From Strix aluco (lineage: Eukaryota; Chordata; Aves; Strigiformes; Strigidae): 64,000 nt of DNA. The notes beneath the pieces are model-generated. The model saw only the letters and a list, made by a program, of their open reading frames with translations. It had not been told where the DNA came from and did not search any database. A program made the translations under genes and the position numbers. The stretch spans positions 137,318,841-137,382,840 of the forward strand of contig NC_133932.1 in the NCBI RefSeq assembly GCF_031877795.1. Reading direction: 5' to 3'. Positions 13,142 to 62,951 of the stretch are shown here, one piece after another. Numbering within the stretch: the first letter of the stretch is position 1; every line of letters begins with the position of its first letter.

Positions 13142-13143
13142 AG

Positions 13144-18365: not shown

Positions 18366-18398
18366 CCTGGGGCAGGGGTTATGCTTGTGTCTCTACAG

Positions 18399-22473: not shown

Positions 22474-23806
22474 ATGGCGCGTGGCAACGGGCCCACCCTG
22501 GCCCAGAGGCTCCCGCTACTGATGCTCAACCTGCTGCTCTTCCTGACCAACACGTCGAGGGCCAAGAGCTTCTGGGTAGGTGATGCTGCACCGCGCTGTG
22601 CCGGGGGGGTGGGATGCTGTGGGGTGGTGTGGTGGAGGCTGTGGTGTGGGGGCTGTGGGGGGCTGTGGCCTTGGCCCGCGAGCCGCTCGCGTCTCACCCA
22701 GCTCTTGGGGTCCTGCAGGGGATGAGGAAGAAGGCGAAACGTTCCCGAAGGAGAGCCAAGGGCCAGACGGAGAAGCCGAGTGCTGAGCAGTCCCGGCCCC
22801 GAGCACCCTGCAAACGGCTGACACCCCACGGCAGCCCTGAGCTCACTCCGTCTACTTCCTGGGCGGCTTCTCCACCAACAGAGAGAGGAATGAAGGAGCC
22901 CGCACCGACCCTGGAGACATGGTGAGTGCTGGGGGAGACCCCCAGATCCTGCCCCAGCCCCTCAGCCCGTGCCCTGCCCGTCCCGCCGGAGGGGCCGGGG
23001 TGCAGAACGTTCACTTCCCTCTGCTCTGCAGTGCCAGCGCGAAGGCGCCAAGCATGGAGGACCTGTGGCAGCTGCCTGACATAGACTCTGTGGGAACCCA
23101 CTCGTCAAGTGTCTCTGTTTCCTCGGGGAGTTCTTATTATATTGACACCCCGGAGGGCCGCATACGGATGCCCAAGGTATGCTCTGTGGGCTCCCCGTCA
23201 TCAAGAGGCTCTGTTTCATCGGGAAGTTCCTATTATATTGACACCCCGGAGGGCCGCATACGGATGCCCAAGGTATGCTCTGTGGGCTCCCCGTCATCAA
23301 GAGGCTCTGCTTCATCGGGAAGTTCCTATTATATCGACACCCCGGAGGGCCGCATACAGATGCCGAAGATATGCTCTCCGGGCCCCTTCTTGTCGAGCAG
23401 CTCTAGATCCACAGACACCCTCCTGGAGCGCAGGCTTGCTGCCATGTCGGAGCAGGTGGCGGCACAAGAGCGCTCGGGACCCGCCCAGTCCCCCGAGGAT
23501 GATCAGGGGCTGGTCGCAAGAGCGGGCGGCAATGAGACCCTCCCCAAGGAGCGCCCCCAGCCCCCCACCTGCAGGGAGGTGGAGGCGAAGCTGCGGCAGC
23601 CGGGAGACAAAATGTGGCTCAATGGGCAGAGAGTGGAGCTGCCACGGGGGCTCCTGGACACAGACGAGGCTGTGGATGGGGACCAGATCAGGAGGAACAA
23701 TGTGGCCCCGGACAGGAGTGCCCGGCTCTGGCAGTGTCTCAAGGCCTGCTGGCAATGGTGCTTACAGTCCTGCTGCTGCTATTGCTTCCCCAAGCCCCCC
23801 AGGTGA
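22474..23806 (+). CDS. Array gene copy 1: unknown secreted or membrane protein, 359 aa
   Basis: I do not recognise this family. Exons 22474-22575, 22719-22921 and 23032-23806; introns of 143 and 110 bp, GT/AG, phases 0 and 2. Residues 1-30 look like a signal peptide (core LPLLMLNLLLFL, 13-24). Exon 2 opens with GMRKKAKRSRRRAK, where RSRR (42-45) fits a furin-type site. Exon 3 starts at C102 and has an acidic SMEDLWQLPDIDSVG segment, then 32-aa repeats from 135 built on SSYYIDTPEGRIRMPKVCS (three here). The end has seven Cys in 23 residues (C337 to C353), possibly palmitoylated or disulfide-bonded. A strong Kozak context (gacATGG) supports the start; M17 is the alternative. ATTAAA lies at 23892. 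This copy has Val in the second repeat spacer and GGNE. Confidence 0.65.
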
Positions 23807-23891
23807 CAGCACTGGTCCCAGAGGAGCAACGGGCACCCCGGAGACAGCCGACGGGGGTGTAAGGCTGGGAAACTCCCTGATATCGTAAAAA

Positions 23892-23897
23892 ATTAAA
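23892..23897 (+). terminator. Polyadenylation signal of unit 1 (ATTAAA)
   Basis: It lies 86 bp after the stop, followed by a GT-rich stretch (cctggtgccgtggttctt). The same signal sits at the same distance in all units; positions are given with each gene. Confidence 0.7.
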
Positions 23898-24222
23898 TGA
23901 TCTTTTCTCCATCCCTGGTGCCGTGGTTCTTCCACCCAGCCCTTGATGCGCCTTCTCCCCCGTCCCTTTGCCAAACCTCCCCTTTGGGTCCCTTGCTGAC
24001 CCCGCCCTCCTCTGCCGGGTCTCCCCCAGGTCCTGGCTCCGAGCTCCCCCGGGCTTTGTCACCTCCGTCCGGCCCTGCGTCCGTAAGCACCACGACGGGG
24101 ACGTTTGCTTGGCCCAGAGCTGCTCCTGCCAGAGCAGGCAGGGACTGTGCCTGCCTTCACCCTGCCTCCTGACCCCCTCCAGAGCCCAGGGGCTGTGGGG
24201 CACCAACTGCAGTAACAGGGTG

Positions 24223-24266
24223 ATTGGACAGGTCAGCTCATTGGCTCTTTTCACCGAAAATCCAAT
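24223..24266. promoter_or_regulatory. Cluster of three CCAAT boxes in the 3' flank of unit 1
   Basis: ATTGG at 24223-24227 and 24240-24244, and CCAAT at 24262-24266, spaced 17 and 22 bp. Such spacing is typical of NF-Y bound promoters or enhancers. The cluster is kept in every unit about 417 bp past the stop, and also in the decayed copy near 10990-11035. Its target is unknown. Confidence 0.45.
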
Positions 24267-25987
24267 CCCCTGAAGGCGCACAGCTGACTTCTCCATCCTC
24301 CTGCATTACCCACCAAGGGCACCCGGGCCCTGGGACAAAAGCAATCCCACGCATGGCTTTACCTTTCCCGATGCACGAATAACCCAGACTGTCTGCCCCA
24401 GCACAGCTTTAATGCCCACTGCGGGGACTTTATCCCCATCTACAGTACGTCGGGGGGTTGGTGGAGCGGGGCCACCCTGCTTGGCAGATCCTCTGCCATT
24501 GACTCACCAGGGGGCTTTTGCTAAATGCACCTCCCAGGGTTTGTTCCCAGTTCCTCGGTGAGAGAGGTCAGCTTTTGGGGAGCTCAGTCAGAGAGCTCGG
24601 TGAGAGAGCTCGGTGAAGGTGGATCTGCGTAGACCTGCAGAGGCCTGGAGAAGCAGCAAGGCTTGGAGGAGAAGCAGGCCTTGGAAGAGAGATACGAAGC
24701 CGTGCTAGTGTGAAGAAGATGGCAGCACCGAGACTGCCTGCGTGGTATGGAACTGTTTGTGGGGTAAGAGTATTGATGACTGTCTAGTTGCTGATTTGCG
24801 TATTATGAAGTAAGAGCTTGGATGAGAGCAAAAGTATGTATTATTGTATGAGTATGTATTAATGTAAGAAGAGAGAAAAAGAGATATTAAAGAACATAAA
24901 CAGCCCCTGCCCTGCAGAAAGAAAGAAGAACATTGTGACGTGTGAATTATTTTGGCCGCTACAAGTTAATACAACTTACTACAACTCAGTAGAATTTAAA
25001 GCAACTTATTACATTTAATACAGGGCGGCAGGCAGAGGGGCTGGTCCCCGCTGTGCTGGAGGGGGCTGCAGGGATACCCCAGCCCAGAGCTCACGGCAGG
25101 CTGGGGAGGAAGGGGGGGTGCTCCCTGAGCCCAGCACCCACCCTGCAGCACAGCACCCAACCCCCAGTCCAGCATCTAGCCCCGCCTAACATCTGCACCC
25201 CCACCCCCAAATCCAGCCCCACAATCCAGCTGCCACCCCCTGGCTCTGGTGGGTGCTCCCCAGCACCAGGATCGGGCCCCACCCAAGGAGCAAGACCCCA
25301 GCCCCACTATCGGGACTCCACCCCAGTGACAGAACCCCAGGCCCAGTATGGAGACCCCAGGCCCAGTATCAAGACCCATCAGAGCTGCAAAAATGACGTC
25401 CTTGGGCACAATCCTGTCCGAGGCCCCTCACAGCAATGAGCACCAACTGCTGGCAGCCATCGGCTAGCAGGCATGCGCTCCCCCCTTTTCTTGAGACTTT
25501 GGGCTCACAAATCCAAGCTTTCAGCACTCAACACCCAAACCTCAGTTTGCGGCAGAAAAAGAGCCGCCGTCGCTGTGGCACAAGAGTCAGAGGTCCCTCA
25601 GCTGGAGCGGATGCGGTCGTTCCTTTGGCCAGTGCTGATCAGTAAATGGCAAGTATGGAAGCACAGAGGGATCGGCGGGCAACGCCCCGCTACTCGCTAC
25701 CCCCCCATTGGGACGGGACACAAAGATGGTCCCGTGAAGGTTCCTACGTGGATCTCGGGCGTTACACGCAGGCAGGCAGAAAGCGCCACGTCCCAACGCG
25801 CCGGGGCCTGGCCTCAGCTACGGGGTCTCTCAGCTACGTTGGCCCCGGGGACCTGAGCGGTTTGGCTCTGAGCCTCCAAGCATGCCGTGCCGCGCCGTGC
25901 CGACACAGGGGTCCCTGATTTCGAGGGGGACACCCCAGCCCCTCCTGAGCCCCTCGCAGGGGGAAGGGCATGGCAGGGGGGGCTGCC

Positions 25988-26212
25988 GGGTGTCACAAAG
26001 GAGGCTCTGCCCGCCCTGTGATGTCACAAAGGGGGCTCTGCCCGCCCTGTGACGTCACAAAGGGGGCTCTGCCCGCCCTGTGGTATCACAAAGGGGGCTC
26101 TGCCTGCCTTGTGATGTCACAAAGCGGGGCTTGGCCACCCTGCGACGTCACTAAGGGGGGTCCACCCGCCTGCCCCAATATAGAAGGCCGCAGCCGCACT
26201 GGGCCCACAGAC
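25988..26212 (+). promoter_or_regulatory. Unit 2 promoter, six CRE-like sites
   Basis: Same site order and 31-bp spacing as unit 1. Confidence 0.7.
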
Positions 26213-27353
26213 ATGGCGCGTGGCAACGGGCCCACCCTGGCCCAGAGGCTCCCGCTACTGATGCTCAACCTGCTGCTCTTCCTGACCAACACGTCGAGGG
26301 CCAAGAGCTTCTGGGTAGGTGATGCTGCACCGCGCTGTGCCGGGGGGGTGGGATGCTGTGGGGTGGTGTGGTGGAGGCTGTGGTGTGGGGGCTGTGGGGG
26401 GCTGTGGCCTTGGCCCGCGAGCCGCTCGCGTCTCACCCAGCTCTTGGGGTCCTGCAGGGGATGAGGAAGAAGGCGAAACGTTCCCGAAGGAGAGCCAAGG
26501 GCCAGACGGAGAAGCCGAGTGCTGAGCAGTCCCGGCCCCGAGCACCCTGCAAACGGCTGACACCCCACGGCAGCCCTGAGCTCACTCCGTCTACTTCCTG
26601 GGCGGCTTCTCCACCAACAGAGAGAGGAATGAAGGAGCCCGCACCGACCCTGGAGACATGGTGAGTGCCGGGGGAGACCCCCAGATCCTGCCCCAGCCCC
26701 TCAGCCCGTGCCCTGCCCGTCCCGCCGGAGGGGCCGGGGTGCAGAACGTTCACTTCCCTCTGCTCTGCAGTGCCAGCGCGAAGGCGCCAAGCATGGAGGA
26801 CCTGTGGCAGCTGCCTGACATAGACTCTGTGGGAACCCACTCGTCAAGTGTCTCTGCTTCATCGGGAAGTTCCTATTATATCGACACCCCGGAGGACCGC
26901 ATACAGATGCCGAAGATATGCTCTCCGGGCCCCTTCTTGTCGAGCAGCTCTAGATCCACAGAGACCCTCCTGGAGCGCAGGCTTGCTGCCATGTCGGAGC
27001 AGGTGGCGGCACAAGAGCGCTCGGGACCCGCCCAGTCCCCCGAGGATGATCAGGGGCTGGTCGCAAGAGCGGGCGGCAATGAGACCCTCCCCAAGGAGCG
27101 CCCCCAGCCCCCCACCTGCAGGGAGGTGGAGGCGAAGCTGCGGCAGCCGGGAGACAAAATGTGGCTCAATGGGCAGAGAGTGGAGCTGCCACGGGGGCTC
27201 CTGGACACAGACGAGGCTGTGGATGGGGACCAGATCAGGAGGAACAATGTGGCCCCGGACAGGAGTGCCCGGCTCTGGCAGTGTCTCAAGGCCTGCTGGC
27301 AATGGTGCTTACAGTCCTGCTGCTGCTATTGCTTCCCCAAGCCCCCCAGGTGA
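26213..27353 (+). CDS. Array gene copy 2, 295 aa
   Basis: Exons 26213-26314, 26458-26660, 26771-27353; polyA signal 27439. One 32-aa repeat only, in the form YYIDTPEDRIQMPKIC (Asp where copy 1 has Gly), and STET where copy 1 has STDT. It keeps GGNE like copy 1, suggesting exchange between neighbours. Group A by coding sequence (see the mosaic finding). Confidence 0.65.
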
Positions 27354-29534
27354 CAGCACTGGTCCCAGAGGAGCAACGGGCACCCCGGAGACAGCCGACG
27401 GGGGTGTAAGGCTGGGAAACTCCCTGATATCGTAAAAAATTAAATGATCTTTTCTCCATCCCTGGTGCCGTGGTTCTTCCACCCAGCCCTTGATGCGCCT
27501 TCTCCCCCGTCCCTTTGCCAAACCTCCCCTTTGGGTCCCTTGCTGACCCCGCCCTCCTCTGCCGGGTCTCCCCCAGGTCCTGGCTCCGAGCTCCCCCGGG
27601 CTTTGTCACCTCCGTCCGGCCCTGCGTCCGTAAGCACCACGACGGGGACGTTTTCTTGGCCCAGAGCTGCTCCTGCCAGAGCAGGCAGGGACTGTGCCTG
27701 CCTTCACCCTGCCTCCTGACCCCCTCCAGAGCCCAGGGGCTGTGGGGCACCAACTGCAGTAACAGGGTGATTGGACAGGTCAGCTCATTGGCTCTTTTCA
27801 CCGAAAATCCAATCCCCTGAAGGCGCACAGCTGACTTCTCCATCCTCCTGCATTACCCACCAAGGGCACCCGGGCCCTGGGACAAAAGCAATCCCACGCA
27901 TGGCTTTACCTTTCCCGATGCACGAATAACCCAGACTGTCTGCCCCAGCACAGCTTTAACGCCCACTGCGGGGACTTTATCCCCATCTACAGTACGTCGG
28001 GGGGTTGGTGGAGCGGGGCCACCCTGCTTGGCAGATCCTCTGCCATTGACTCACCAGGGGGCTTTTGCTAAATGCACCTCCCAGGGTTTGTTCCCAGTTC
28101 CTCGGTGAGAGAGGTCAGCTTTTGGGGAGCTCAGTCAGAGAGCTCGGTGAGAGAGCTCGGTGAAGGTGGATCTGCGTAGGCCCGCAGAGGCCTGGAGAAG
28201 CGGCAAGGCTTGGAGGAGAAGCAGGCCTTGGAAGAGAGATACGAAGCCGTGCTAGTGTGAAGAAGATGGCAGCACCGAGACTGCCTGCGTGGTATGGAAC
28301 TGTTTGTGGGGTAAGAGTATTGATGACTGTCTAGTTGCTGATTTGCGTATTATGAAGTAAGAGCTTGGATGAGAGCAAAAGTATGTATTATTGTATGAGT
28401 ATGTATTAATGTAAGAAGAGAGAAAAAGAGATATTAAAGAACATAAACAGCCCCTGCCCTGCAGAAAGAAAGAAGAACATTGTGACGTGTGAATTATTTT
28501 GGCCGCTACAAGTTAATACAACTTACTACAACTCAGTAGAATTTAAAGCAACTTATTACATTTAATACAGGGCGGCAGGCAGAGGGGCTGGTCCCCGCTG
28601 TGCTGGAGGGGGCTGCAGGGATACCCCAGCCCAGAGCTCACGGCAGGCTGGGGAGGAAGGGGGGGTGCTCCCTGAGCCCAGCACCCACCCTGCAGCACAG
28701 CACCCAACCCCCAGTCCAGCATCTAGCCCCGCCTAACATCTGCACCCCCACCCCCAAATCCAGCCCCACAATCCAGCTGCCACCCCCTGGCTCTGGTGGG
28801 TGCTCCCCAGCACCAGGATCGGGCCCCACCCAAGGAGCAAGACCCCAGCCCCACTATCGGGACTCCACCCCAGTGACAGAACCCCAGGCCCAGTATGGAG
28901 ACCCCAGGCCCAGTATCAAGACCCATCAGAGCTGCAAAAATGACGTCCTTGGGCACAATCCTGTCCGAGGCCCCTCACAGCAATGAGCACCAACTGCTGG
29001 CAGCCATCGGCTAGCAGGCATGCGCTCCCCCCTTTTCTTGAGACTTTGGGCTCACAAATCCAAGCTTTCAGCACTCAACACCCAAACCTCAGTTTGCGGC
29101 AGAAAAAGAGCCGCCGTCGCTGTGGCACAAGAGTCAGAGGTCCCTCAGCTGGAGCGGATGCGGTCGTTCCTTTGGCCAGTGCTGATCAGTAAATGGCAAG
29201 TATGGAAGCACAGAGGGATCGGCGGGCAACGCCCCGCTACTCGCTACCCCCCCATTGGGACGGGACACAAAGATGGTCCCGTGAAGGTTCCTACGTGGAT
29301 CTCGGGCGTTACACGCAGGCAGGCAGAAAGCGCCACGTCCCAACGCGCCGGGGCCTGGCCTCAGCTACGGGGTCTCTCAGCTACGTTGGCCCCGGGGACC
29401 TGAGCGGTTTGGCTCTGAGCCTCCAAGCATGCCGTGCCGCGCCGTGCCGACACAGGGGTCCCTGATTTCGAGGGGGACACCCCAGCCCCTCCTGAGCCCC
29501 TCGCAGGGGGAAGGGCATGGCAGGGGGGGCTGCC

Positions 29535-29759
29535 GGGTGTCACAAAGGAGGCTCTGCCCGCCCTGTGATGTCACAAAGGGGGCTCTGCCCGCCCTGTGAC
29601 GTCACAAAGGGGGCTCTGCCCGCCCTGTGGTATCACAAAGGGGGCTCTGCCTGCCTTGTGATGTCACAAAGCGGGGCTTGGCCACCCTGCGACGTCACTA
29701 AGGGGGGTCCACCCGCCTGCCCCAATATAGAAGGCCGCAGCCGCACTGGGCCCACAGAC
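29535..29759 (+). promoter_or_regulatory. Unit 3 promoter, six CRE-like sites
   Basis: The last unit with the six-site form; every unit to the right has five. Confidence 0.7.
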
Positions 29760-30900
29760 ATGGCGCGTGGCAACGGGCCCACCCTGGCCCAGAGGCTCCC
29801 GCTACTGATGCTCAACCTGCTGCTCTTCCTGACCAACACGTCGAGGGCCAAGAGCTTCTGGGTAGGTGATGCTGCACCGCGCTGTGCCGGGGGGGTGGGA
29901 TGCTGTGGGGTGGTGTGGTGGAGGCTGTGGTGTGGGGGCTGTGGGGGGCTGTGGCCTTGGCCCGCGAGCCGCTCGCGTCTCACCCAGCTCTTGGGGTCCT
30001 GCAGGGGATGAGGAAGAAGGCGAAACGTTCCCGAAGGAGAGCCAAGGGCCAGACGGAGAAGCCGAGTGCTGAGCAGTCCCGGCCCCGAGCACCCTGCAAA
30101 CGGCTGACACCCCACGGCAGCCCTGAGCTCACTCCGTCTACTTCCTGGGCGGCTTCTCCACCAACAGAGAGAGGAATGAAGGAGCCCGCACCGACCCTGG
30201 AGACATGGTGAGTGCCGGGGGAGACCCCCAGATCCTGCCCCAGCCCCTCAGCCCGTGCCCTGCCCGTCCCGCCGGAGGGGCCGGGGTGCAGAACGTTCAC
30301 TTCCCTCTGCTCTGCAGTGCCAGCGCGAAGGCGCCAAGCATGGAGGACCTGTGGCAGCTGCCTGACATAGACTCTGTGGGAACCCACTCGTCAAGTGTCT
30401 CTGCTTCATCGGGAAGTTCCTATTATATCGACACCCCGGAGGACCGCATACAGATGCCGAAGATATGCTCTCCGGGCCCCTTCTTGTCGAGCAGCTCTAG
30501 ATCCACAGAGACCCTCCTGGAGCGCAGGCTTGCTGCCATGTCGGAGCAGGTGGCGGCACAAGAGCGCTCGGGACCCGCCCAGTCCCCCGAGGATGATCAG
30601 GGGCTGGTCGCAAGAGCGGGCGGCGATGAGACCCTCCCCAAGGAGCGCCCCCAGCCCCCCACCTGCAGGGAGGTGGAGGCGAAGCTGCGGCAGCCGGGAG
30701 ACAAAATGTGGCTCAATGGGCAGAGAGTGGAGCTGCCACGGGGGCTCCTGGACACAGACGAGGCTGTGGATGGGGACCAGATCAGGAGGAACAATGTGGC
30801 CCCGGACAGGAGTGCCCGGCTCTGGCAGTGTCTCAAGGCCTGCTGGCAATGGTGCTTACAGTCCTGCTGCTGCTATTGCTTCCCCAAGCCCCCCAGGTGA
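29760..30900 (+). CDS. Array gene copy 3, 295 aa
   Basis: Exons 29760-29861, 30005-30207, 30318-30900; polyA signal 30986. Group A, as copy 2 but with GGDE instead of GGNE; all later copies have GGDE. Confidence 0.65.
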
Positions 30901-33076: not shown

Positions 33077-33270
33077 GGGTGTCACAAAGGAGGCTCTGCC
33101 CGCCCTGTGACGTCACAAAGGGGGCTCTGCCCGCCCTGTGGTATCACAAAGGGGGCTCTGCCTGCCTTGTGATGTCACAAAGCGGGGCTTGGCCACCCTG
33201 CGACGTCACTAAGGGGGGTCCACCCGCCTGCCCCAATATAGAAGGCCGCAGCCGCACTGGGCCCACAGAC
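33077..33270 (+). promoter_or_regulatory. Unit 4 promoter, five CRE-like sites
   Basis: Lacks one 31-bp repeat (the upstream TGATGTCA site) and 5 bp further upstream. The full TGACGTCA is kept at 33108. Confidence 0.7.
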
Positions 33271-34401
33271 ATGGCGCGTGGCAACGGGCCCACCCTGGCC
33301 CAGAGGCTCCCGCTACTGATGCTCAACGTGCTGCTCTTCCTGACCAACACGTCGAGGGCCAAGAGCTTCTGGGTAGGTGATGCTGCACCGCGCTGTGCCG
33401 GGGGGGTGGGATGCTGTGGGGTGGTGTGGTGGAGGCTGTGGTGTGGGGGCTGTGGCCTTGGCCCGCGAGCCGCTCGCGTCTCACCCAGCTCTTGGGGTCC
33501 TGCAGGGGATGAGGAAGAAGGCGAAACGTTCCCGAAGGAGAGCCAAGGGCCAGACGGAGAAGCCGAGTGCTGAGCAGTCCCGGCCCCGAGCACCCTGCAA
33601 ACGGCTGACACCCCACGGCAGCCCTGAGCTCACTCCGTCTACTTCCTGGGCGGCTTCTCCACCAACAGAGAGAGGAATGAAGGAGCCCGCACCGACCCTG
33701 GAGACATGGTGAGTGCCGGGGGAGACCCCCAGATCCTGCCCCAGCCCCTCAGCCCGTGCCCTGCCCGTCCCGCCGGAGGGGCCGGGGTGCAGAACGTTCA
33801 CTTCCCTCTGCTCTGCAGTGCCAGCGCGAAGGCGCCAAGCATGGAGGACCTGTGGCAGCTGCCTGACATAGACTCTGTGGGAACCCACTCGTCAAGTGTC
33901 TCTGCTTCATCGGGAAGTTCCTATTATATCGACACCCCGGAGGACCGCATACAGATGCCGAAGATATGCTCTCCGGGCCCCTTCTTGTCGAGCAGCTCTA
34001 GATCCACAGACACCCTCCTGGAGCGCAGGCTTGCTGCCATGTCGGAGCAGGTGGCGGCACAAGAGCGCTCGGGACCCGCCCAGTCCCCCGAGGATGATCA
34101 GGGGCTGGTTGCAAGAGCGGGCGGCGATGAGACCCTCCCCAAGGAGCGCCCCCAGCCCCCCACCTGCAGGGAGGTGGAGGCGAAGCTGCGGCAGCCGGGA
34201 GACAAAATGTGGCTCAATGGGCAGAGAGTGGAGCTGCCACGGGGGCTCCTGGACACAGACGAGGCTGTGGATGGGGACCAGATCAGGAGGAACAATGTGG
34301 CCCCGGACAGGAGTGCCCGGCTCTGGCAGTGTCTCAAGGCCTGCTGGCAATGGTGCTTACAGTCCTGCTGCTGCTATTGCTTCCCCAAGCCCCCCAGGTG
34401 A
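33271..34401 (+). CDS. Array gene copy 4, 295 aa
   Basis: Exons 33271-33372, 33506-33708, 33819-34401; polyA signal 34487. Group B: L20V inside the leader core, intron 1 shorter by 10 bp (133 bp), STDT, and a silent C-to-T in the Val codon of QGLVA. One 32-aa repeat of the PEDRIQ form. Confidence 0.65.
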
Positions 34402-36577: not shown

Positions 36578-36771
36578 GGGTGTCACAAAGGAGGCTCTGC
36601 CCGCCCTGTGACGTCACAAAGGGGGCTCTGCCCGCCCTGTGGTATCACAAAGGGGGCTCTGCCTGCCTTGTGATGTCACAAAGCGGGGCTTGGCCACCCT
36701 GCGACGTCACTAAGGGGGGTCCACCCGCCTGCCCCAATATAGAAGGCCGCAGCCGCACTGGGCCCACAGAC
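36578..36771 (+). promoter_or_regulatory. Unit 5 promoter, five CRE-like sites
   Basis: Same five-site form as unit 4. Confidence 0.7.
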
Positions 36772-37911
36772 ATGGCGCGTGGCAACGGGCCCACCCTGGC
36801 CCAGAGGCTCCCGCTACTGATGCTCAACCTGCTGCTCTTCCTGACCAACACGTCGAGGGCCAAGAGCTTCTGGGTAGGTGATGCTGCACCGCGCTGTGCC
36901 GGGGGGTGGGATGCTGTGGGGTGGTGTGGTGGAGGCTGTGGTGTGGGGGCTGTGGGGGGCTGTGGCCTTGGCCCGCGAGCCGCTCGCGTCTCACCCAGCT
37001 CTTGGGGTCCTGCAGGGGATGAGGAAGAAGGCGAAACGTTCCCGAAGGAGAGCCAAGGGCCAGACGGAGAAGCCGAGTGCTGAGCAGTCCCGGCCCCGAG
37101 CACCCTGCAAACGGCTGACACCCCACGGCAGCCCTGAGCTCACTCCGTCTACTTCCTGGGCGGCTTCTCCACCAACAGAGAGAGGAATGAAGGAGCCCGC
37201 ACCGACCCTGGAGACATGGTGAGTGCCGGGGGAGACCCCCAGATCCTGCCCCAGCCCCTCAGCCCGTGCCCTGCCCGTCCCGCCGGAGGGGCCGGGGTGC
37301 AGAACGTTCACTTCCCTCTGCTCTGCAGTGCCAGCGCGAAGGCGCCAAGCATGGAGGACCTGTGGCAGCTGCCTGACATAGACTCTGTGGGAACCCACTC
37401 GTCAAGTGTCTCTGCTTCATCGGGAAGTTCCTATTATATCGACACCCCGGAGGACCGCATACAGATGCCGAAGATATGCTCTCCGGGCCCCTTCTTGTCG
37501 AGCAGCTCTAGATCCACAGAGACCCTCCTGGAGCGCAGGCTTGCTGCCATGTCGGAGCAGGTGGCGGCACAAGAGCGCTCGGGACCCGCCCAGTCCCCCG
37601 AGGATGATCAGGGGCTGGTCGCAAGAGCGGGCGGCGATGAGACCCTCCCCAAGGAGCGCCCCCAGCCCCCCACCTGCAGGGAGGTGGAGGCGAAGCTGCG
37701 GCAGCCGGGAGACAAAATGTGGCTCAATGGGCAGAGAGTGGAGCTGCCACGGGGGCTCCTGGACACAGACGAGGCTGTGGATGGGGACCAGATCAGGAGG
37801 AACAATGTGGCCCCGGACAGGAGTGCCCGGCTCTGGCAGTGTCTCAAGGCCTGCTGGCAATGGTGCTTACAGTCCTGCTGCTGCTATTGCTTCCCCAAGC
37901 CCCCCAGGTGA
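36772..37911 (+). CDS. Array gene copy 5, 295 aa
   Basis: Exons 36772-36873, 37016-37218, 37329-37911; polyA signal 37997. Group A coding sequence (L20, STET) with a five-site promoter. Intron 1 is 142 bp through loss of one G in a G-run; this does not touch the coding frame. Confidence 0.65.
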
Positions 37912-40281: not shown

Positions 40282-41412
40282 ATGGCGCGTGGCAACGGGC
40301 CCACCCTGGCCCAGAGGCTCCCGCTACTGATGCTCAACGTGCTGCTCTTCCTGACCAACACGTCGAGGGCCAAGAGCTTCTGGGTAGGTGATGCTGCACC
40401 GCGCTGTGCCGGGGGGGTGGGATGCTGTGGGGTGGTGTGGTGGAGGCTGTGGTGTGGGGGCTGTGGCCTTGGCCCGCGAGCCGCTCGCGTCTCACCCAGC
40501 TCTTGGGGTCCTGCAGGGGATGAGGAAGAAGGCGAAACGTTCCCGAAGGAGAGCCAAGGGCCAGACGGAGAAGCCGAGTGCTGAGCAGTCCCGGCCCCGA
40601 GCACCCTGCAAACGGCTGACACCCCACGGCAGCCCTGAGCTCACTCCGTCTACTTCCTGGGCGGCTTCTCCACCAACAGAGAGAGGAATGAAGGAGCCCG
40701 CACCGACCCTGGAGACATGGTGAGTGCCGGGGGAGACCCCCAGATCCTGCCCCAGCCCCTCAGCCCGTGCCCTGCCCGTCCCGCCGGAGGGGCCGGGGTG
40801 CAGAACGTTCACTTCCCTCTGCTCTGCAGTGCCAGCGCGAAGGCGCCAAGCATGGAGGACCTGTGGCAGCTGCCTGACATAGACTCTGTGGGAACCCACT
40901 CGTCAAGTGTCTCTGCTTCATCGGGAAGTTCCTATTATATCGACACCCCGGAGGACCGCATACAGATGCCGAAGATATGCTCTCCGGGCCCCTTCTTGTC
41001 GAGCAGCTCTAGATCCACAGACACCCTCCTGGAGCGCAGGCTTGCTGCCATGTCGGAGCAGGTGGCGGCACAAGAGCGCTCGGGACCCGCCCAGTCCCCC
41101 GAGGATGATCAGGGGCTGGTTGCAAGAGCGGGCGGCGATGAGACCCTCCCCAAGGAGCGCCCCCAGCCCCCCACCTGCAGGGAGGTGGAGGCGAAGCTGC
41201 GGCAGCCGGGAGACAAAATGTGGCTCAATGGGCAGAGAGTGGAGCTGCCACGGGGGCTCCTGGACACAGACGAGGCTGTGGATGGGGACCAGATCAGGAG
41301 GAACAATGTGGCCCCGGACAGGAGTGCCCGGCTCTGGCAGTGTCTCAAGGCCTGCTGGCAATGGTGCTTACAGTCCTGCTGCTGCTATTGCTTCCCCAAG
41401 CCCCCCAGGTGA
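40282..41412 (+). CDS. Array gene copy 6, 295 aa
   Basis: Exons 40282-40383, 40517-40719, 40830-41412; polyA signal 41498. Group B. I saw no coding difference from copy 4, which fits duplication of a two-unit block or conversion. Confidence 0.65.
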
Positions 41413-43782: not shown

Positions 43783-44913
43783 ATGGCGCGTGGCAACGGG
43801 CCCACCCTGGCCCAGAGGCTCCCGCTACTGATGCTCAACGTGCTGCTCTTCCTGACCAACACGTCGAGGGCCAAGAGCTTCTGGGTAGGTGATGCTGCAC
43901 CGCGCTGTGCCGGGGGGGTGGGATGCTGTGGGGTGGTGTGGTGGAGGCTGTGGTGTGGGGGCTGTGGCCTTGGCCCGCGAGCCGCTCGCGTCTCACCCAG
44001 CTCTTGGGGTCCTGCAGGGGATGAGGAAGAAGGCGAAACGTTCCCGAAGGAGAGCCAAGGGCCAGACGGAGAAGCCGAGTGCTGAGCAGTCCCGGCCCCG
44101 AGCACCCTGCAAACGGCTGACACCCCACGGCAGCCCTGAGCTCACTCCGTCTACTTCCTGGGCGGCTTCTCCACCAACAGAGAGAGGAATGAAGGAGCCC
44201 GCACCGACCCTGGAGACATGGTGAGTGCCGGGGGAGACCCCCAGATCCTGCCCCAGCCCCTCAGCCCGTGCCCTGCCCGTCCCGCCGGAGGGGCCGGGGT
44301 GCAGAACGTTCACTTCCCTCTGCTCTGCAGTGCCAGCGCGAAGGCGCCAAGCATGGAGGACCTGTGGCAGCTGCCTGACATAGACTCTGTGGGAACCCAC
44401 TCGTCAAGTGTCTCTGCTTCATCGGGAAGTTCCTATTATATCGACACCCCGGAGGACCGCATACAGATGCCGAAGATATGCTCTCCGGGCCCCTTCTTGT
44501 CGAGCAGCTCTAGATCCACAGACACCCTCCTGGAGCGCAGGCTTGCTGCCATGTCGGAGCAGGTGGCGGCACAAGAGCGCTCGGGACCCGCCCAGTCCCC
44601 CGAGGATGATCAGGGGCTGGTTGCAAGAGCGGGCGGCGATGAGACCCTCCCCAAGGAGCGCCCCCAGCCCCCCACCTGCAGGGAGGTGGAGGCGAAGCTG
44701 CGGCAGCCGGGAGACAAAATGTGGCTCAATGGGCAGAGAGTGGAGCTGCCACGGGGGCTCCTGGACACAGACGAGGCTGTGGATGGGGACCAGATCAGGA
44801 GGAACAATGTGGCCCCGGACAGGAGTGCCCGGCTCTGGCAGTGTCTCAAGGCCTGCTGGCAATGGTGCTTACAGTCCTGCTGCTGCTATTGCTTCCCCAA
44901 GCCCCCCAGGTGA
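43783..44913 (+). CDS. Array gene copy 7, 295 aa
   Basis: Exons 43783-43884, 44018-44220, 44331-44913; polyA signal 44999. Group B with L20V and the short intron 1. Its 3' flank has a private G-to-A (gacgggaacg near 45205). Confidence 0.65.
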
Positions 44914-47283: not shown

Positions 47284-48424
47284 ATGGCGCGTGGCAACGG
47301 GCCCACCCTGGCCCAGAGGCTCCCGCTACTGATGCTCAACCTGCTGCTCTTCCTGACCAACACGTCGAGGGCCAAGAGCTTCTGGGTAGGTGATGCTGCA
47401 CCGCGCTGTGCCGGGGGGGTGGGATGCTGTGGGGTGGTGTGGTGGAGGCTGTGGTGTGGGGGCTGTGGGGGGCTGTGGCCTTGGCCCGCGAGCCGCTCGC
47501 GTCTCACCCAGCTCTTGGGGTCCTGCAGGGGATGAGGAAGAAGGCGAAACGTTCCCGAAGGAGAGCCAAGGGCCAGACGGAGAAGCCGAGTGCTGAGCAG
47601 TCCCGGCCCCGAGCACCCTGCAAACGGCTGACACCCCACGGCAGCCCTGAGCTCACTCCGTCTACTTCCTGGGCGGCTTCTCCACCAACAGAGAGAGGAA
47701 TGAAGGAGCCCGCACCGACCCTGGAGACATGGTGAGTGCCGGGGGAGACCCCCAGATCCTGCCCCAGCCCCTCAGCCCGTGCCCTGCCCGTCCCGCCGGA
47801 GGGGCCGGGGTGCAGAACGTTCACTTCCCTCTGCTCTGCAGTGCCAGCGCGAAGGCGCCAAGCATGGAGGACCTGTGGCAGCTGCCTGACATAGACTCTG
47901 TGGGAACCCACTCGTCAAGTGTCTCTGCTTCATCGGGAAGTTCCTATTATATCGACACCCCGGAGGACCGCATACAGATGCCGAAGATATGCTCTCCGGG
48001 CCCCTTCTTGTCGAGCAGCTCTAGATCCACAGAGACCCTCCTGGAGCGCAGGCTTGCTGCCATGTCGGAGCAGGTGGCGGCACAAGAGCGCTCGGGACCC
48101 GCCCAGTCCCCCGAGGATGATCAGGGGCTGGTCGCAAGAGCGGGCGGCGATGAGACCCTCCCCAAGGAGTGCCCCCAGCCCCCCACCTGCAGGGAGGTGG
48201 AGGCGAAGCTGCGGCAGCCGGGAGACAAAATGTGGCTCAATGGGCAGAGAGTGGAGCTGCCACGGGGGCTCCTGGACACAGACGAGGCTGTGGATGGGGA
48301 CCAGATCAGGAGGAACAATGTGGCCCCGGACAGGAGTGCCCGGCTCTGGCAGTGTCTCAAGGCCTGCTGGCAATGGTGCTTACAGTCCTGCTGCTGCTAT
48401 TGCTTCCCCAAGCCCCCCAGGTGA
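47284..48424 (+). CDS. Array gene copy 8, 295 aa
   Basis: Exons 47284-47385, 47529-47731, 47842-48424; polyA signal 48510. Group A with a private Arg-to-Cys change giving LPKECPQPPT, which adds a Cys to the middle of exon 3. Confidence 0.65.
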
Positions 48425-50600: not shown

Positions 50601-50794
50601 GGGTGTCACAAAGGAGGCTCTGCCCGCCCTGTGACGTCACAAAGGGGGCTCTGCCCGCCCTGTGGTATCACAAAGGGGGCTCTGCCTGCCTTGTGATGTC
50701 ACAAAGCGGGGCTTGGCCACCCTGCGACGTCACTAAGGGGGGTCCACCCGCCTGCCCCAATATAGAAGGCCGCAGCCGCACTGGGCCCACAGAC
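50601..50794 (+). promoter_or_regulatory. Unit 9 promoter, five CRE-like sites
   Basis: Same five-site form. Confidence 0.7.
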
Positions 50795-52031
50795 ATGGCG
50801 CGTGGCAACGGGCCCACCCTGGCCCAGAGGCTCCCGCTACTGATGCTCAACCTGCTGCTCTTCCTGACCAACACGTCGAGGGCCAAGAGCTTCTGGGTAG
50901 GTGATGCTGCACCGCGCTGTGCCGGGGGGGTGGGATGCTGTGGGGTGGTGTGGTGGAGGCTGTGGTGTGGGGGCTGTGGGGGGCTGTGGCCTTGGCCCGC
51001 GAGCCGCTCGCGTCTCACCCAGCTCTTGGGGTCCTGCAGGGGATGAGGAAGAAGGCGAAACGTTCCCGAAGGAGAGCCAAGGGCCAGACGGAGAAGCTGA
51101 GTGCTGAGCAGTCCCGGCCCCGAGCACCCTGCAAACGGCTGACACCCCACGGCAGCCCTGAGCTCACTCCGTCTACTTCCTGGGCGGCTTCTCCACCAAC
51201 AGAGAGAGGAATGAAGGAGCCCGCACCGACCCTGGAGACATGGTGAGTGCTGGGGGAGACCCCCAGATCCTGCCCCAGCCCCTCAGCCCGTGCCCTGCCC
51301 GTCCCGCCGGAGGGGCCGGGGTGCAGAACGTTCACTTCCCTCTGCTCTGCAGTGCCAGTGCGAAGGCGCCAAGCATGGAGGACCTGTGGCAGCTGCCTGA
51401 CATAGACTCTGTGGGAACCCACTCGTCAAGTGTCTCTGTTTCCTCGGGGAGTTCTTATTATATTGACACCCCGGAGGGCCGCATACGGATGCCCAAGGTA
51501 TGCTCTGTGGGCTCCCCGTCATCAAGAGGCTCTGCTTCATCGGGAAGTTCCTATTATATCGGCACCCCGGAGGGCCGCATACAGATGCCGAAGATATGCT
51601 CTCCGGGCCCCTTCTTGTCGAGCAGCTCTAGATCCACAGACACCCTCCTGGAGCGCAGGCTTGCTGCCATGTCGGAGCAGGTGGCGGCACAAGAGCGCTC
51701 GGGACCCGCCCAGTCCCCCGAGGATGATCAGGGGCTGGTCGCAAGAGCGGGCGGCGATGAGACCCTCCCCAAGGAGCGCCCCCAGCCCCCCACCTGCAGG
51801 GAGGTGGAGGCGAAGCTGCGGCAGCCGGGAGACAAAATGTGGCTCAATGGGCAGAGAGTGGAGCTGCCACGGGGGCTCCTGGACACAGACGAGGCTGTGG
51901 ATGGGGACCAGATCAGGAGGAACAATGTGGCCCCGGACAGGAGTGCCCGGCTCTGGCAGTGTCTCAAGGCCTGCTGGCAATGGTGCTTACAGTCCTGCTG
52001 CTGCTATTGCTTCCCCAAGCCCCCCAGGTGA
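50795..52031 (+). CDS. Array gene copy 9, 327 aa
   Basis: Exons 50795-50896, 51040-51242, 51353-52031; polyA signal 52117. Group C with two 32-aa repeats. P54L in exon 2 (EKLSAEQ). The second repeat reads YYIGTPEG, replacing the usual Asp with Gly. STDT form. Confidence 0.65.
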
Positions 52032-54231: not shown

Positions 54232-54425
54232 GGGTGTCACAAAGGAGGCTCTGCCCGCCCTGTGACGTCACAAAGGGGGCTCTGCCCGCCCTGTGGTATC
54301 ACAAAGGGGGCTCTGCCTGCCTTGTGATGTCACAAAGCGGGGCTTGGCCACCCTGCGACGTCACTAAGGGGGGTCCACCCGCCTGCCCCAATATAGAAGG
54401 CCGCAGCCGCACTGGGCCCACAGAC
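54232..54425 (+). promoter_or_regulatory. Unit 10 promoter, five CRE-like sites
   Basis: Promoter as in neighbours, but the spacer further upstream (53190-53460) carries a cluster of substitutions and a net 24-bp insertion not seen in other units. Confidence 0.7.
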
Positions 54426-55566
54426 ATGGCGCGTGGCAACGGGCCCACCCTGGCCCAGAGGCTCCCGCTACTGATGCTCAACCTGCTGCTCTTCCTGACC
54501 AACACGTCGAGGGCCAAGAGCTTCTGGGTAGGTGATGCTGCACCGCGCTGTGCCGGGGGGGTGGGATGTTGTGGGGTGGTGTGGTGGAGGCTGTGGTGTG
54601 GGGGCTGTGGGGGGCTGTGGCCTTGGCCCGCGAGCCGCTCGCGTCTCACCCAGCTCTTGGGGTCCTGCAGGGGATGAGGAAGAAGGCGAAACGTTCCCGA
54701 AGGAGAGCCAAGGGCCAGACGGAGAAGCCGAGTGCTGAGCAGTCCCGGCCCCGAGCACCCTGCAAACGGCTGACACCCCACGGCAGCCCTGAGCTCACTC
54801 CGTCTACTTCCTGGGCGGCTTCTCCACCAACAGAGAGAGGAATGAAGGAGCCCGCACCGACCCTGGAGACATGGTGAGTGCCGGGGGAGACCCCCAGATC
54901 CTGCCCCAGCCCCTCAGCCCGTGCCCTGCCCGTCCCGCCGGAGGGGCCGGGGTGCAGAACGTTCACTTCCCTCTGCTCTGCAGTGCCAGCGCGAAGGCGC
55001 CAAGCATGGAGGACCTGTGGCAGCTGCCTGACATAGACTCTGTGGGAACCCACTCGTCAAGTGTCTCTGCTTCATCGGGAAGTTCCTATTATATCGACAC
55101 CCCGGAGGACCGCATACAGATGCCGAAGATATGCTCTCCGGGCCCCTTCTTGTCGAGCAGCTCTAGATCCACAGAGACCCTCCTGGAGCGCAGGCTTGCT
55201 GCCATGTCGGAGCAGGTGGCGGCACAAGAGCGCTCGGGACCCGCCCAGTCCCCCGAGGATGATCAGGGGCTGGTCGCAAGAGCGGGCGGCGATGAGACCC
55301 TCCCCAAGGAGCGCCCCCAGCCCCCCACCTGCAGGGAGGTGGAGGCGAAGCTGCGGCAGCCGGGAGACAAAATGTGGCTCAATGGGCAGAGAGTGGAGCT
55401 GCCACGGGGGCTCCTGGACACAGACGAGGCTGTGGATGGGGACCAGATCAGGAGGAACAATGTGGCCCCGGACAGGAGTGCCCGGCTCTGGCAGCGTCTC
55501 AAGGCCTGCTGGCAATGGTGCTTACAGTCCTGCTGCTGCTATTGCTTCCCCAAGCCCCCCAGGTGA
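54426..55566 (+). CDS. Array gene copy 10, 295 aa
   Basis: Exons 54426-54527, 54671-54873, 54984-55566; polyA signal 55652. Group A (PEDRIQ, STET), but the first Cys of the C-terminal cluster is Arg (LWQRLKACW), a change shared with copies 11 and 12. Confidence 0.65.
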
Positions 55567-57742: not shown

Positions 57743-57936
57743 GGGTGTCACAAAGGAGGCTCTGCCCGCCCTGTGACGTCACAAAGGGGGCTCTGCCCGC
57801 CCTGTGGTATCACAAAGGGGGCTCTGCCTGCCTTGTGATGTCACAAAGCGGGGCTTGGCCACCCTGCGACGTCACTAAGGGGGGTCCACCCGCCTGCCCC
57901 AATATAGAAGGCCGCAGCCGCACTGGGCCCACAGAC
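57743..57936 (+). promoter_or_regulatory. Unit 11 promoter, five CRE-like sites
   Basis: Same five-site form. Confidence 0.7.
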
Positions 57937-59269
57937 ATGGCGCGTGGCAACGGGCCCACCCTGGCCCAGAGGCTCCCGCTACTGATGCTCAACCTGCTGC
58001 TCTTCCTGACCAACACGTCGAGGGCCAAGAGCTTCTGGGTAGGTGATGCTGCACCGCGCTGTGCCGGGGGGGTGGGATGCTGTGGGGTGGTGTGGTGGAG
58101 GCTGTGGTGTGGGGGCTGTGGGGGGCTGTGGCCTTGGCCCGCGAGCCGCTCGCGTCTCACCCAGCTCTTGGGGTCCTGCAGGGGATGAGGAAGAAGGCGA
58201 AACGTTCCCGAAGGAGAGCCAAGGGCCAGACGGAGAAGCTGAGTGCTGAGCAGTCCCGGCCCCGAGCACCCTGCAAACGGCTGACACCCCACGGCAGCCC
58301 TGAGCTCACTCCGTCTACTTCCTGGGCGGCTTCTCCACCAACAGAGAGAGGAATGAAGGAGCCCGCACCGACCCTGGAGACATGGTGAGTGCTGGGGGAG
58401 ACCCCCAGATCCTGCCCCAGCCCCTCAGCCCGTGCCCTGCCCGTCCCGCCGGAGGGGCCGGGGTGCAGAACGTTCACTTCCCTCTGCTCTGCAGTGCCAG
58501 TGCGAAGGCGCCAAGCATGGAGGACCTGTGGCAGCTGCCTGACATAGACTCTGTGGGAACCCACTCGTCAAGTGTCTCTGTTTCCTCGGGGAGTTCTTAT
58601 TATATTGACACCCCGGAGGGCCGCATACGGATGCCCAAGGTATGCTCTGTGGGCTCCCCGTCATCAAGAGGCTCTGCTTCATCGGGAAGTTCCTATTATA
58701 TTGACACCCCGGAGGGCCGCATACGGATGCCCAAGGTATGCTCTGTGGGCTCCCCGTCATCAAGAGGCTCTGCTTCATCGGGAAGTTCCTATTATATCGA
58801 CACCCCGGAGGGCCGCATACAGATGCCGAAGATATGCTCTCCGGGCCCCTTCTTGTCGAGCAGCTCTAGATCCACAGACACCCTCCTGGAGCGCAGGCTT
58901 GCTGCCATGTCGGAGCAGGTGGCGGCACAAGAGCGCTCGGGACCCGCCCAGTCCCCCGAGGATGATCAGGGGCTGGTCGCAAGAGCGGGCGGCGATGAGA
59001 CCCTCCCCAAGGAGCGCCCCCAGCCCCCCACCTGCAGGGAGGTGGAGGCGAAGCTGCGGCAGCCGGGAGACAAAATGTGGCTCAATGGGCAGAGAGTGGA
59101 GCTGCCACGGGGGCTCCTGGACACAGACGAGGCTGTGGATGGGGACCAGATCAGGAGGAACAATGTGGCCCCGGACAGGAGTGCCCGGCTCTGGCAGCGT
59201 CTCAAGGCCTGCTGGCAATGGTGCTTACAGTCCTGCTGCTGCTATTGCTTCCCCAAGCCCCCCAGGTGA
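57937..59269 (+). CDS. Array gene copy 11, 359 aa
   Basis: Exons 57937-58038, 58182-58384, 58495-59269; polyA signal 59355. Group C with three 32-aa repeats. P54L as in copy 9, and Arg in place of the first cluster Cys (C337R). Confidence 0.65.
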
Positions 59270-61424
59270 CAGCACTGGTCCCAGAGGAGCAACGGGCACC
59301 CCGGAGACAGCCGACGGGGGTGTAAGGCTGGGAAACTCCCTGATATCGTAAAAAATTAAATGATCTTTTCTCCATCCCTGGTGCCGTGGTTCTTCCACCC
59401 AGCCCTTGATGCGCCTTCTCCCCCGTCCCTTTGCCAAACCTCCCCTTTGGGTCCCTTGCTGACCCCGCCCTCCTCTGCCGGGTCTCCCCCAGGTCCTGGC
59501 TCCGAGCTCCCCCGGGCTTTGTCACCTCCGTCCGGCCCTGCGTCCGTAAGCACCACGACGGGGACGTTTTCTTGGCCCAGAGCTGCTCCTGCCAGAGCAG
59601 GCAGGGACTGTGCCTGCCTTCACCCTGCCTCCTGACCCCCTCCAGAGCCCAGGGGCTGCGGGGCACCAACTGCAGTAACAGGGTGATTGGACAGGTCAGC
59701 TCATTGGCTCTTTTCACCGAAAATCCAATCCCCTGAAGGCGCACAGCTGACTTCTCCATCCTCCTGCATTACCCACCAAGGGCACCCGGGCCCTGGGACA
59801 AAAGCAATCCCACGCATGGCTTTACCTTTCCCGATGCACGAATAACCCAGACTGTCTGCCCCAGCACAGTTTTAATGCCCACTGCGGGGACTTTATCCCC
59901 ATCTACAGTACGTCGGGGGGTTGGTGGAGCGGGGCCACCCTGCTTGGCAGATCCTCTGCCATTGACTCACCAGGGGGCTTTTGCTAAATGCACCTCCCAG
60001 GGTTTGTTCCCAGTTCCTCGGTGAGAGAGGTCAGCTTTTGGGGAGCTCAGTCAGAGAGCTCGGTGAGAGAGCTCGGTGAAGGTGGATCTGCGTAGGCCCG
60101 CAGAGGCCTGGAGAAGCGGCAAGGCTTGGAGGAGAAGCAGGCCTTGGAAGAGAGATACGAAGCCGTGCTAGTGTGAAGAAGATGGCAGCACCGAGACTGC
60201 CTGCGTGGTATGGAACTGTTTGTGGGGTAAGAGTATTGATGACTGTCTAGTTGCTGATTTGCGTATTATGAAGTAAGAGCTTGGATGAGAGCAAAAGTAT
60301 GTAATGTAAGAAGAGAGAAAAAGAGAGATTAAAGAACATAAACAGCCCCTGCCCTGCAGAAAGAAAGAAGAACATTGTGACGTGTGAATTATTTTGGCCG
60401 CTACAAGTTAATACAACTTACTACAACTCAGTAGAATTTAAAGCAACTTATTACATTTAATACAGGGCGGCAGGCAGAGGGGCTGGTCCCCGCTGTGCTG
60501 GAGGGGGCTGCAGGGATACCCCAGCCCAGAGCTCACGGCAGGCTGGGGAGGAAGGGGGGGTGCTCCCTGAGCCCAGCACCCACCCTGCAGCACAGCACCC
60601 AACCCCCAGTCCAGCATCTAGCCCCGCCTAACATCTGCACCCCCACCCCCAAATCCAGCCCCACAATCCAGCTGCCACCCCCTGGCTCTGGTGGGTGCTC
60701 CCCAGCACCAGGATCGGGCCCCACCCAAGGAGCAAGACCCCAGCCCCACTATCGGGACTCCACCCCAGTGACAGAACCCCAGGCCCAGTATGGAGACCCC
60801 AGGCCCAGTATCAAGACCCATCAGAGCTGCAAAAATGACGTCCTTGGGCACAATCCTGTCCGAGGCCCCTCACAGCAATGAGCACCAACTGCTGGCAGCC
60901 ATCGGCTAGCAGGCATGCGCTCCCCCCTTTTCTTGAGACTTTGGGCTCACAAATCCAAGCTTTCAGCACTCAACACCCAAACCTCAGTTTGCGGCAGAAA
61001 AAGAGCCGCCGTCGCTGTGGCACAAGAGTCAGAGGTCCCTCAGCTGGAGCGGATGCGGTCGTTCCTTTGGCCAGTGCTGATCAGTAAATGGCAAGTATGG
61101 AAGCACAGAGGGATCGGCGGGCAACGCCCCGCTACTCGCTACCCCCCCATTGGGACGGGACACAAAGATGGTCCCGTGAAGGTTCCTACGTGGATCTCGG
61201 GCGTTACACGCAGGCAGGCAGAAAGCGCCACGTCCCAACGCGCCGGGGCCTGGCCTCAGCTACGGGGTCTCTCAGCTACGTTGGCCCCGGGGACCTGAGC
61301 GGTTTGGCTCTGAGCCTCCAAGCGTGCCGCGCCGTGCCGACACAGGGGTCCCTGATTTCGAGGGGGACACCCCAGCCCCTCCTGAGCCCCTCGCAGGGGG
61401 AAGGGCATGGCAGGGGGGGCTGCC

Positions 61425-61618
61425 GGGTGTCACAAAGGAGGCTCTGCCCGCCCTGTGACGTCACAAAGGGGGCTCTGCCCGCCCTGTGGTATCACAAAGG
61501 GGGCTCTGCCTGCCTTGTGATGTCACAAAGCGGGGCTTGGCCACCCTGCGACGTCACTAAGGGGGGTCCACCCGCCTGCCCCAATATAGAAGGCCGCAGC
61601 CGCACTGGGCCCACAGAC
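61425..61618 (+). promoter_or_regulatory. Unit 12 promoter, five CRE-like sites
   Basis: Same five-site form. The AT-rich insert upstream has lost 21 bp near 60300. Confidence 0.7.
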
Positions 61619-62951
61619 ATGGCGCGTGGCAACGGGCCCACCCTGGCCCAGAGGCTCCCGCTACTGATGCTCAACCTGCTGCTCTTCCTGACCAACACGT
61701 CGAGGGCCAAGAGCTTCTGGGTAGGTGATGCTGCACCGCGCTGTGCCGGGGGGGTGGGATGCTGTGGGGTGGTGTGGTGGAGGCTGTGGTGTGGGAGCTG
61801 TGGGGGGCTGTGGCCTTGGCCCGTGAGCCGCTCGCGTCTCACCCAGCTCCTGGGGTCCTGCAGGGGATGAGGAAGAAGGCGAAACGTTCCCGAAGGAGAG
61901 CCAAGGGCCAGACGGAGAAGCCGAGTGCTGAGCAGTCCCGGCCCCGAGCACCCTGCAAACGGCTGACACCCCACGGCAGCCCTGAGCTCACTCCGTCTAC
62001 TTCCTGGGCGGCTTCTCCACCAACAGAGAGAGGAATGAAGGAGCCCGCACCGACCCTGGAGACATGGTGAGTGCTGGGGGAGACCCCCAGATCCTGCCCC
62101 AGCCCCTCAGCCCGTGCCCTGCCCGTCCCGCCGGAGGGGCCGGGGTGCAGAACGTTCACTTCCCTCTGCTCTGCAGTGCCAGTGCGAAGGCGCCAAGCAT
62201 GGAGGACCTGTGGCAGCTGCCTGACATAGACTCTGTGGGAACCCACTCGTCAAGTGTCTCTGTTTCCTCGGGGAGTTCTTATTATATTGACACCCCGGAG
62301 GGCCGCGTACGGATGCCCAAGGTATGCTCTGTGGGCTCCCCGTCATCAAGAGGCTCTGCTTCATCGGGAAGTTCCTATTATATTGACACCCCGGAGGGCC
62401 GCATACGGATGCCCAAGGTATGCTCTGTGGGCTCCCCGTCATCAAGAGGCTCTGCTTCATCGGGAAGTTCCTATTATATCGACACCCCGGAGGGCCGCAT
62501 ACAGATGCCGAAGATATGCTCTCCGGGCCCCTTCTTGTCGAGCAGCTCTAGATCCACAGACACCCTCCTGGAGCGCAGGCTTGCTGCCATGTCGGAGCAG
62601 GTGGCGGCACAAGAGCGCTCGGGACCCGCCCAGTCCCCCGAGGATGATCAGGGGCTGGTCGCAAGAGCGGGCGGCGATGAGACCCTCCCCAAGGAGCGCC
62701 CCCAGCCCCCCACCTGCAGGGAGGTGGAGGCGAAGCTGCGGCAGCCGGGAGACAAAATGTGGCTCAATGGGCAGAGAGTGGAGCTGCCACGGGGGCTCCT
62801 GGACACAGACGAGGCTGTGGATGGGGACCAGATCAGGAGGAACAATGTGGCCCCGGACAGGAGTGCCCGGCTCTGGCAGCGTCTCAAGGCCTGCTGGCAA
62901 TGGTGCTTACAGTCCTGCTGCTGCTATTGCTTCCCCAAGCCCCCCAGGTGA
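61619..62951 (+). CDS. Array gene copy 12, 359 aa
   Basis: Exons 61619-61720, 61864-62066, 62177-62951; polyA signal 63037. Group C with three repeats. Ile-to-Val in the first repeat (PEGRVRMPK), P54 as in copy 1, C337R as in copies 10 and 11. Intron 1 has private substitutions (gggagctg, cccgtgagcc, gctcctgggg), making it one of the more divergent copies. Confidence 0.65.

Follow-up and report, generated by a model that had tools for sequence, protein, structure and literature searches.

The 64,000-nucleotide stretch of Strix aluco DNA analysed here (the window; contig NC_133932.1, positions 137,318,841 to 137,382,840, forward strand) carries a tandem array of at least 12 head-to-tail units of ~3.5 kb, each of which contains a compact three-exon gene (Table 1). 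Gene starts lie 3501-3739 bases apart over the 11 complete spacings, and the array runs past the end of the window, the last spacer extending to position 64000, where unit 12 is cut. The three-exon layout, GT-AG introns with splice phases 0 and 2 and a lone terminal stop codon are present in 12 of 12 units, as is an ATTAAA signal 86 bases past the last base of the stop codon. Exon 1 is always 102 bases and exon 2 always 203 bases long, whereas exon 3 measures 583, 679 or 775 bases, depending on how many times (one to three) it contains a 96-bp module that encodes 32 amino acids (three copies in units 1, 11 and 12, two in unit 9 and one in the remaining eight), which gives predicted proteins of 295 amino acids (aa) in eight units, 327 aa in one and 359 aa in three. 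Intron 1 is reduced by 10 bases in units 4, 6 and 7 and by 1 base in unit 5. A preliminary description of this DNA had proposed twelve three-exon units with matching splice phases, promoter and polyA signal and without stop or frameshift, and this was borne out in all twelve; the start (22474) and end (62951) that it gave are exact, but the array continues beyond them, as spacer on the right and as remnants on the left, and its '32-aa repeats' apply to the four units in which the module is truly repeated and not to the eight with a single copy. Among 20000 first-order Markov sequences of matched composition, only a fraction of 0.00025 kept a 295-codon frame open, so the gene model is not a product of chance. 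Multiplication of one copy by the assembly was considered and mostly rejected, as the units are of unequal length and module number and vary at 42 columns with single-nucleotide polymorphisms (SNPs); units 3 and 5 have zero SNPs between them, and for such single pairs an assembly duplication may be the cause.

The product is a basic protein of ~33 kDa (isoelectric point 9.3) that is predicted to be mostly disordered. A hydrophobic N-terminal segment is followed by a basic stretch, a Ser-rich region with the one to three modules, a better conserved 'WL.G.RVE.P' stretch and a C-terminus rich in Trp and Cys, in which seven Cys fall within the last 26 residues. The profile search that the preliminary description had proposed was run against Pfam (E up to 1) and gave no match; the protein likewise had no match among PDB chains (E up to 1), and three owl relatives had none in Pfam. 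The earlier statement that the protein fits no known family thus holds for Pfam and PDB, but a family of uncharacterised owl gene models does exist, one without a name in Pfam, PDB and the NCBI labels examined. An AlphaFold2 model of one of them, P0006, built with three relatives, is of low confidence (mean predicted local distance difference test score (pLDDT) 51, predicted template modelling score (pTM) 0.17) and can serve as a hint only: it has a basic N-terminal helix, two weak hairpins, of which one aligns near the module and the other lies at the conserved KIWLYGERVEVP with a short helix before it, and a Cys/Trp helix at the C-terminus, the remainder being without assigned structure.

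Relatives came from three protein searches that required shared 5-residue words, two of which scored ~8000 candidates. Twelve were found (P0001-P0012), and all seven that carry an organism label are owl gene models of Strix and Athene: LOC141939850 (P0002) from Strix uralensis, LOC141921931 (P0007) and LOC141921929 from Strix aluco, and LOC141974061, LOC141974046, LOC141955847 and LOC141955560 from Athene noctua. P0004 is identical to the window protein over 23% of the query and P0005 is 97% identical over 12%. As we read the alignments, rather than a tree, the window gene and P0001-P0006 appear to form one subfamily (A) and P0007-P0012 another (B). Homology to five of the owl models (all but LOC141955847 and LOC141955560) extends across exons 2 and 3 (part of exon 3 in LOC141921929; exon 1 as well in LOC141921931), and the region of the exon 2/3 junction (LETC.SAKAPS) is common to the window gene and subfamily B. 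The exon 1 and splice sites first proposed gain support from subfamily B, where P0007 and P0012 share this exon 1 (MACGNGPT...) and related intron sequence is contained in two read-through products, P0009 and P0012. These five models are at most ~66% alike to the window gene, and the array arrangement is seen only for the latter. P0002 and P0007 each represent a cluster of sequences 90% alike on one contig (5 and 13 sequences, respectively), perhaps further gene copies or isoforms. No description of the family appeared among the matches listed in the open PubMed Central library for owl tandem genes, owl genomes, bird testis arrays, macrosatellites and CREM, and the same library held no papers for the five owl LOC names searched (all but LOC141955847 and LOC141955560); the accessible main text of the Ural owl genome paper had no match to 'tandem' or 'testis' (PMC12455985).

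Each of the 12 proximal promoters contains one perfect cAMP response element (CRE, TGACGTCA) at -163 (22311-22318 in unit 1), a half-CRE at -67 and a TATA-like box (CCAATATAGAA) at -38 (22436-22446 in unit 1), all three at constant distances from the gene. Tandem 31-bp elements are also present, with 5.8 copies in units 1-3 and 4.8 copies in all others. There are 12 CREs in the whole window against 0.23 expected, every one of them within the promoters of the array. The sequence TGACGTCA is a recognition site of CREM, which has been called a key modulator of male germ-cell differentiation (PMC10454534). A candidate distal first exon, encoding MAAPRLPAWYGTVCG, lies in the spacer 1437-1495 bases before each gene, with an in-phase GTAAG donor in 12 of 12 units, and 14 of its 15 residues match the start of P0002. 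Since the Strix uralensis model starts with a 15-residue exon that is found in the spacers of the window, a distal promoter is a concrete alternative to the proximal one.

To the left of the array lie remnants of further units (Table 1). Those at 12023-12120 and 19403-20085 are two halves of one older, disabled copy, whose exon 3 and spacer fill 19403-22473, up to unit 1. The DNA between the two halves includes an endogenous retrovirus (12807-19295) that has two identical 335-base long terminal repeats, a short piece resembling env, and gag- and pol-like frames that are open (Pfam Gag_p24, RVT_1, rve); its insertion appears to be recent. About 100 bases of spacer are inverted at 10339-10437 (compare 10868-10967), just left of the 10.4-kb remnant, and mark a rearrangement at the left edge of the array. 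Farther left, an open frame of an NAD:arginine ADP-ribosyltransferase (ART) on the minus strand (7622-8782; Pfam PF01129, E = 4.7e-89) offers a usable synteny marker, and a plus-strand frame at 929-1522 has a RING-like stretch, with a sub-threshold match to zf-rbx1 (E = 0.08); we take it to resemble RNF121/RNF175. Rfam and tRNA scans of the window gave no match.

Table 1. Coordinates of the gene units, promoter elements and remnants in the window.
Feature	Position	Strand	Exons or remarks
Unit 1 gene	22474-23806	+	22474-22575, 22719-22921, 23032-23806; 359 aa
Unit 2 gene	26213-27353	+	26213-26314, 26458-26660, 26771-27353; 295 aa
Unit 3 gene	29760-30900	+	29760-29861, 30005-30207, 30318-30900; 295 aa
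Unit 4 gene	33271-34401	+	33271-33372, 33506-33708, 33819-34401; 295 aa
Unit 5 gene	36772-37911	+	36772-36873, 37016-37218, 37329-37911; 295 aa
Unit 6 gene	40282-41412	+	40282-40383, 40517-40719, 40830-41412; 295 aa
Unit 7 gene	43783-44913	+	43783-43884, 44018-44220, 44331-44913; 295 aa
Unit 8 gene	47284-48424	+	47284-47385, 47529-47731, 47842-48424; 295 aa
Unit 9 gene	50795-52031	+	50795-50896, 51040-51242, 51353-52031; 327 aa
Unit 10 gene	54426-55566	+	54426-54527, 54671-54873, 54984-55566; 295 aa
Unit 11 gene	57937-59269	+	57937-58038, 58182-58384, 58495-59269; 359 aa
Unit 12 gene	61619-62951	+	61619-61720, 61864-62066, 62177-62951; 359 aa
Three 96-bp modules, unit 1 exon 3	23086-23377	+	
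Unit 1 proximal promoter	22250-22448	+	31-bp tandem elements, CRE, half-CRE, TATA-like box
Candidate distal first exon, unit 2	24719-24763	+	encodes MAAPRLPAWYGTVCG, then GTAAG, phase 0; 1494 bases before unit 2 ATG
Candidate distal exon, other copies	20979 (-21023), 28266, 31813, 35314, 38824, 42325, 45826, 49337, 52944, 56479, 60182	+	
Remnant 3' end and downstream spacer of another unit	10438-11318	+	97.6% alike overall, 99.3% over 10581-11318
Remnant intron 1/exon 2 of a further unit	12023-12120	+	~85% alike, cut where other DNA begins
Remnant exon 3	19403-20085	+	two in-frame stops and length changes; then spacer leading into unit 1

We favour, with moderate confidence, the interpretation that the array is a coding macrosatellite, formed by amplification of a fast-evolving gene that is restricted to owls, probably expressed in the germ line and with a membrane-tethered product. 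It starts from direct observations, namely the array, the gene model, the near-identity of the units, the owl relatives and the dead copies alongside. One gene of subfamily A, together with its promoter and spacer, would have been recently amplified in a ~3.5-kb unit by unequal crossing-over, and the copies would be kept alike by unequal crossing-over and gene conversion, a mode of spread that we infer from the near-identity of the units and the changes in module number. The hydrophobic N-terminus would tether the product to the membrane with its body in the cytoplasm, and the C-terminal cysteines may be palmitoylation sites. The promoter with its CRE and TATA-like box would drive the gene in post-meiotic male germ cells, where the array could supply a protein of the sperm or spermatid membrane surface at high dose. 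Transcription may sometimes begin at the distal exon in the preceding spacer, which would yield a form without the hydrophobic segment.

Several points weigh against this interpretation. CREs serve somatic genes too, and transcripts initiated from a TATA-like box as little as 38 bases ahead of the ATG would have hardly any 5' leader. The twelve CREs are copies of one duplicated site, not twelve events, and in one study a full CRE was present in only 180 (11.2%) of CREM-bound promoters (PMC3285179), so that the CRE and TATA-like box are no more than suggestive of germ-line expression. At the protein level, the Strix uralensis model P0002 lacks exon 1, using a different first exon, and changes frame just before the Cys cluster; neither end of the protein is therefore strictly kept. 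Exon 1 of the window gene is only weakly hydrophobic (Kyte-Doolittle value over 19 residues of 1.31; P0007 and P0012, where it is clearly a membrane helix, reach 2.7-3.0) and might instead act as a signal peptide that is cleaved off.

Further points of this kind come from the variation among copies, and they bear on the rival explanation that survives best, which we nevertheless consider rather unlikely: that the array is a neutral macrosatellite, whose unit carries a once-useful gene that was amplified by unequal exchange and at present drifts, with hardly any function left or none. In 66 pairwise comparisons, in which unit 12 was truncated at the end of the window, the units differ by 0-0.74%. 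When only columns with letters in at least eight of the 12 units were used, SNPs occurred with equal density at exon (10/888) and non-exon (32/2623) positions (Fisher p = 1), and the exon SNPs comprised eight replacement and two silent changes, where ~7:3 would be expected from random mutation, so purifying selection is not seen among the copies. The preliminary description had taken the uniform, intact copies as a sign of selection, which is not supported as argued: because the units differ so little and their SNP patterns look neutral, uniformity is weak evidence of selection, disabled remnants adjoin the array, and the idea that twelve intact copies prove selection was rejected. The copies are young or recently homogenised and, taken alone, neither prove nor exclude selection. 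The ratio of replacement to silent substitution rates (dN/dS) between the remnant and unit 12 is 0.92, with values of 1.00 and 0.79 in the shifted frames, and this comparison too shows no purifying selection. Between subfamilies A and B the translated introns are about as conserved as the exons (matches in intron 2, 20/35; intron 1, 16/37; exon 1, 18/33; exon 3, 74/160), and a C-terminal frame that the window gene leaves unused, but which takes the place of the Cys cluster in Strix uralensis, is 75% alike between the two over 40 residues; the corresponding values are 61% (179 residues) for the frame of exon 3 that is used and 77% (70 residues) around exon 2.

Drift alone fits less well with the relatives of the window protein, whose frames are open at a divergence too great for chance (P0002 ~66%, P0003 ~57% and P0006 42-46% alike), and this is stronger evidence that the gene is real than the uniformity of the array. 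When neutral evolution was simulated in 2000 runs, with substitutions as the only kind of change, the frame survived in 0.75% of them at 68% identity, in 0.05% at 53% and in none at 48%; the open relatives are themselves gene models and were thus chosen for openness, an ascertainment that again weakens the point. Within the array, no frame-breaking insertion or deletion (indel) is present in any exon, whereas the rate in non-coding DNA predicts ~2.7 indels (p = 0.07; the rate derives from eight indels outside exons, counted by eye), and module number changes only in whole 96-bp steps. Fast evolution under weak constraint is compatible with both the open frames and the conservation of the introns.

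Less probable still is that the gene encodes a secreted, furin-cleaved precursor, such as a peptide of defence or of the seminal fluid whose C-terminus is rich in disulfides. In its favour, exon 1 contains a short hydrophobic core and has SRA-KSFW at its end, the sequence RSRR occupies residues 42-45 of the window protein, and an RX[KR]R motif occurs in four of the 12 relatives (P0002, P0003, P0004 and P0006, in the last of these downstream of the aligned basic stretch). However, the motif was not found in P0007 and P0012, the sole subfamily B proteins that cover this region (the other four being partial), and in both of them exon 1 forms a full membrane helix that is directly followed by the basic RKRQETKR. 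At the other end of the protein, the C-terminal CCC runs lie in a helix predicted with low confidence and show no spaced cysteine pattern, and this end is lost in P0002. The leader with a furin-like basic stretch proposed earlier is thus doubtful, as its RSRR is present and recurs as RX[KR]R in four relatives, but P0007 and P0012 have a membrane helix and lack the motif. Judged from these sequences, the ancestral N-terminus may have served as an anchor whose basic stretch faced the cytoplasm, and not as a leader followed by a furin site; cleavage of the window protein is still conceivable because its exon 1 is less hydrophobic and carries RSRR.

We doubt that the locus takes part in germ-line conflict or dose escalation, as a meiotic driver or its suppressor might, with copy number itself under selection. 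Recent amplification, rapid divergence between owls and a promoter possibly suited to germ cells would fit such a role, but no target, rival locus or sex linkage is apparent at this one locus of one assembly. Equally speculative is a fuller scenario in which the family exists only in owls, having arisen within their lineage or just before it, and its product is a spermatid protein tethered to the membrane; germ-line conflict would place array length under selection, and a second promoter in each spacer would produce a soluble form without the anchor.

Coding macrosatellites seem to be best described in primates, and an amplified coding macrosatellite in owls, as we favour here, looks like the testis-expressed gene arrays of mammals. 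The PRR20 macrosatellite at human 13q21.1, reported to be expressed in testis and to vary from 5 to about 20 copies (PMC3018141), is a close precedent: its units are also head-to-tail and each contains an entire three-exon gene whose protein is of low complexity, the open reading frames of five complete human units are described as free of SNPs, and amino-acid identity among primates is given as 71-95%. PRR20 differs in its 6.6-kb unit and 221-aa proline-rich protein, for which we claim no sequence relation to the owl gene, and in that testis expression and copy-number polymorphism have been demonstrated, whereas the owl array is known from the sequence of one assembly. According to the same source, TAF11-Like and ZAV are strongly expressed in testis (PMC3018141), and the copies of human Y ampliconic genes are stated to be >99% alike (PMC6772104), much as the owl units are near-identical; all of these are genes other than the owl's, and the Y families are sex-linked. 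Beside these systems the owl array would provide a compact bird example, with relatives at several distances among owls, intact and dead copies together and a CRE promoter, in which dose, homogenisation and gene birth could be tested in birds.

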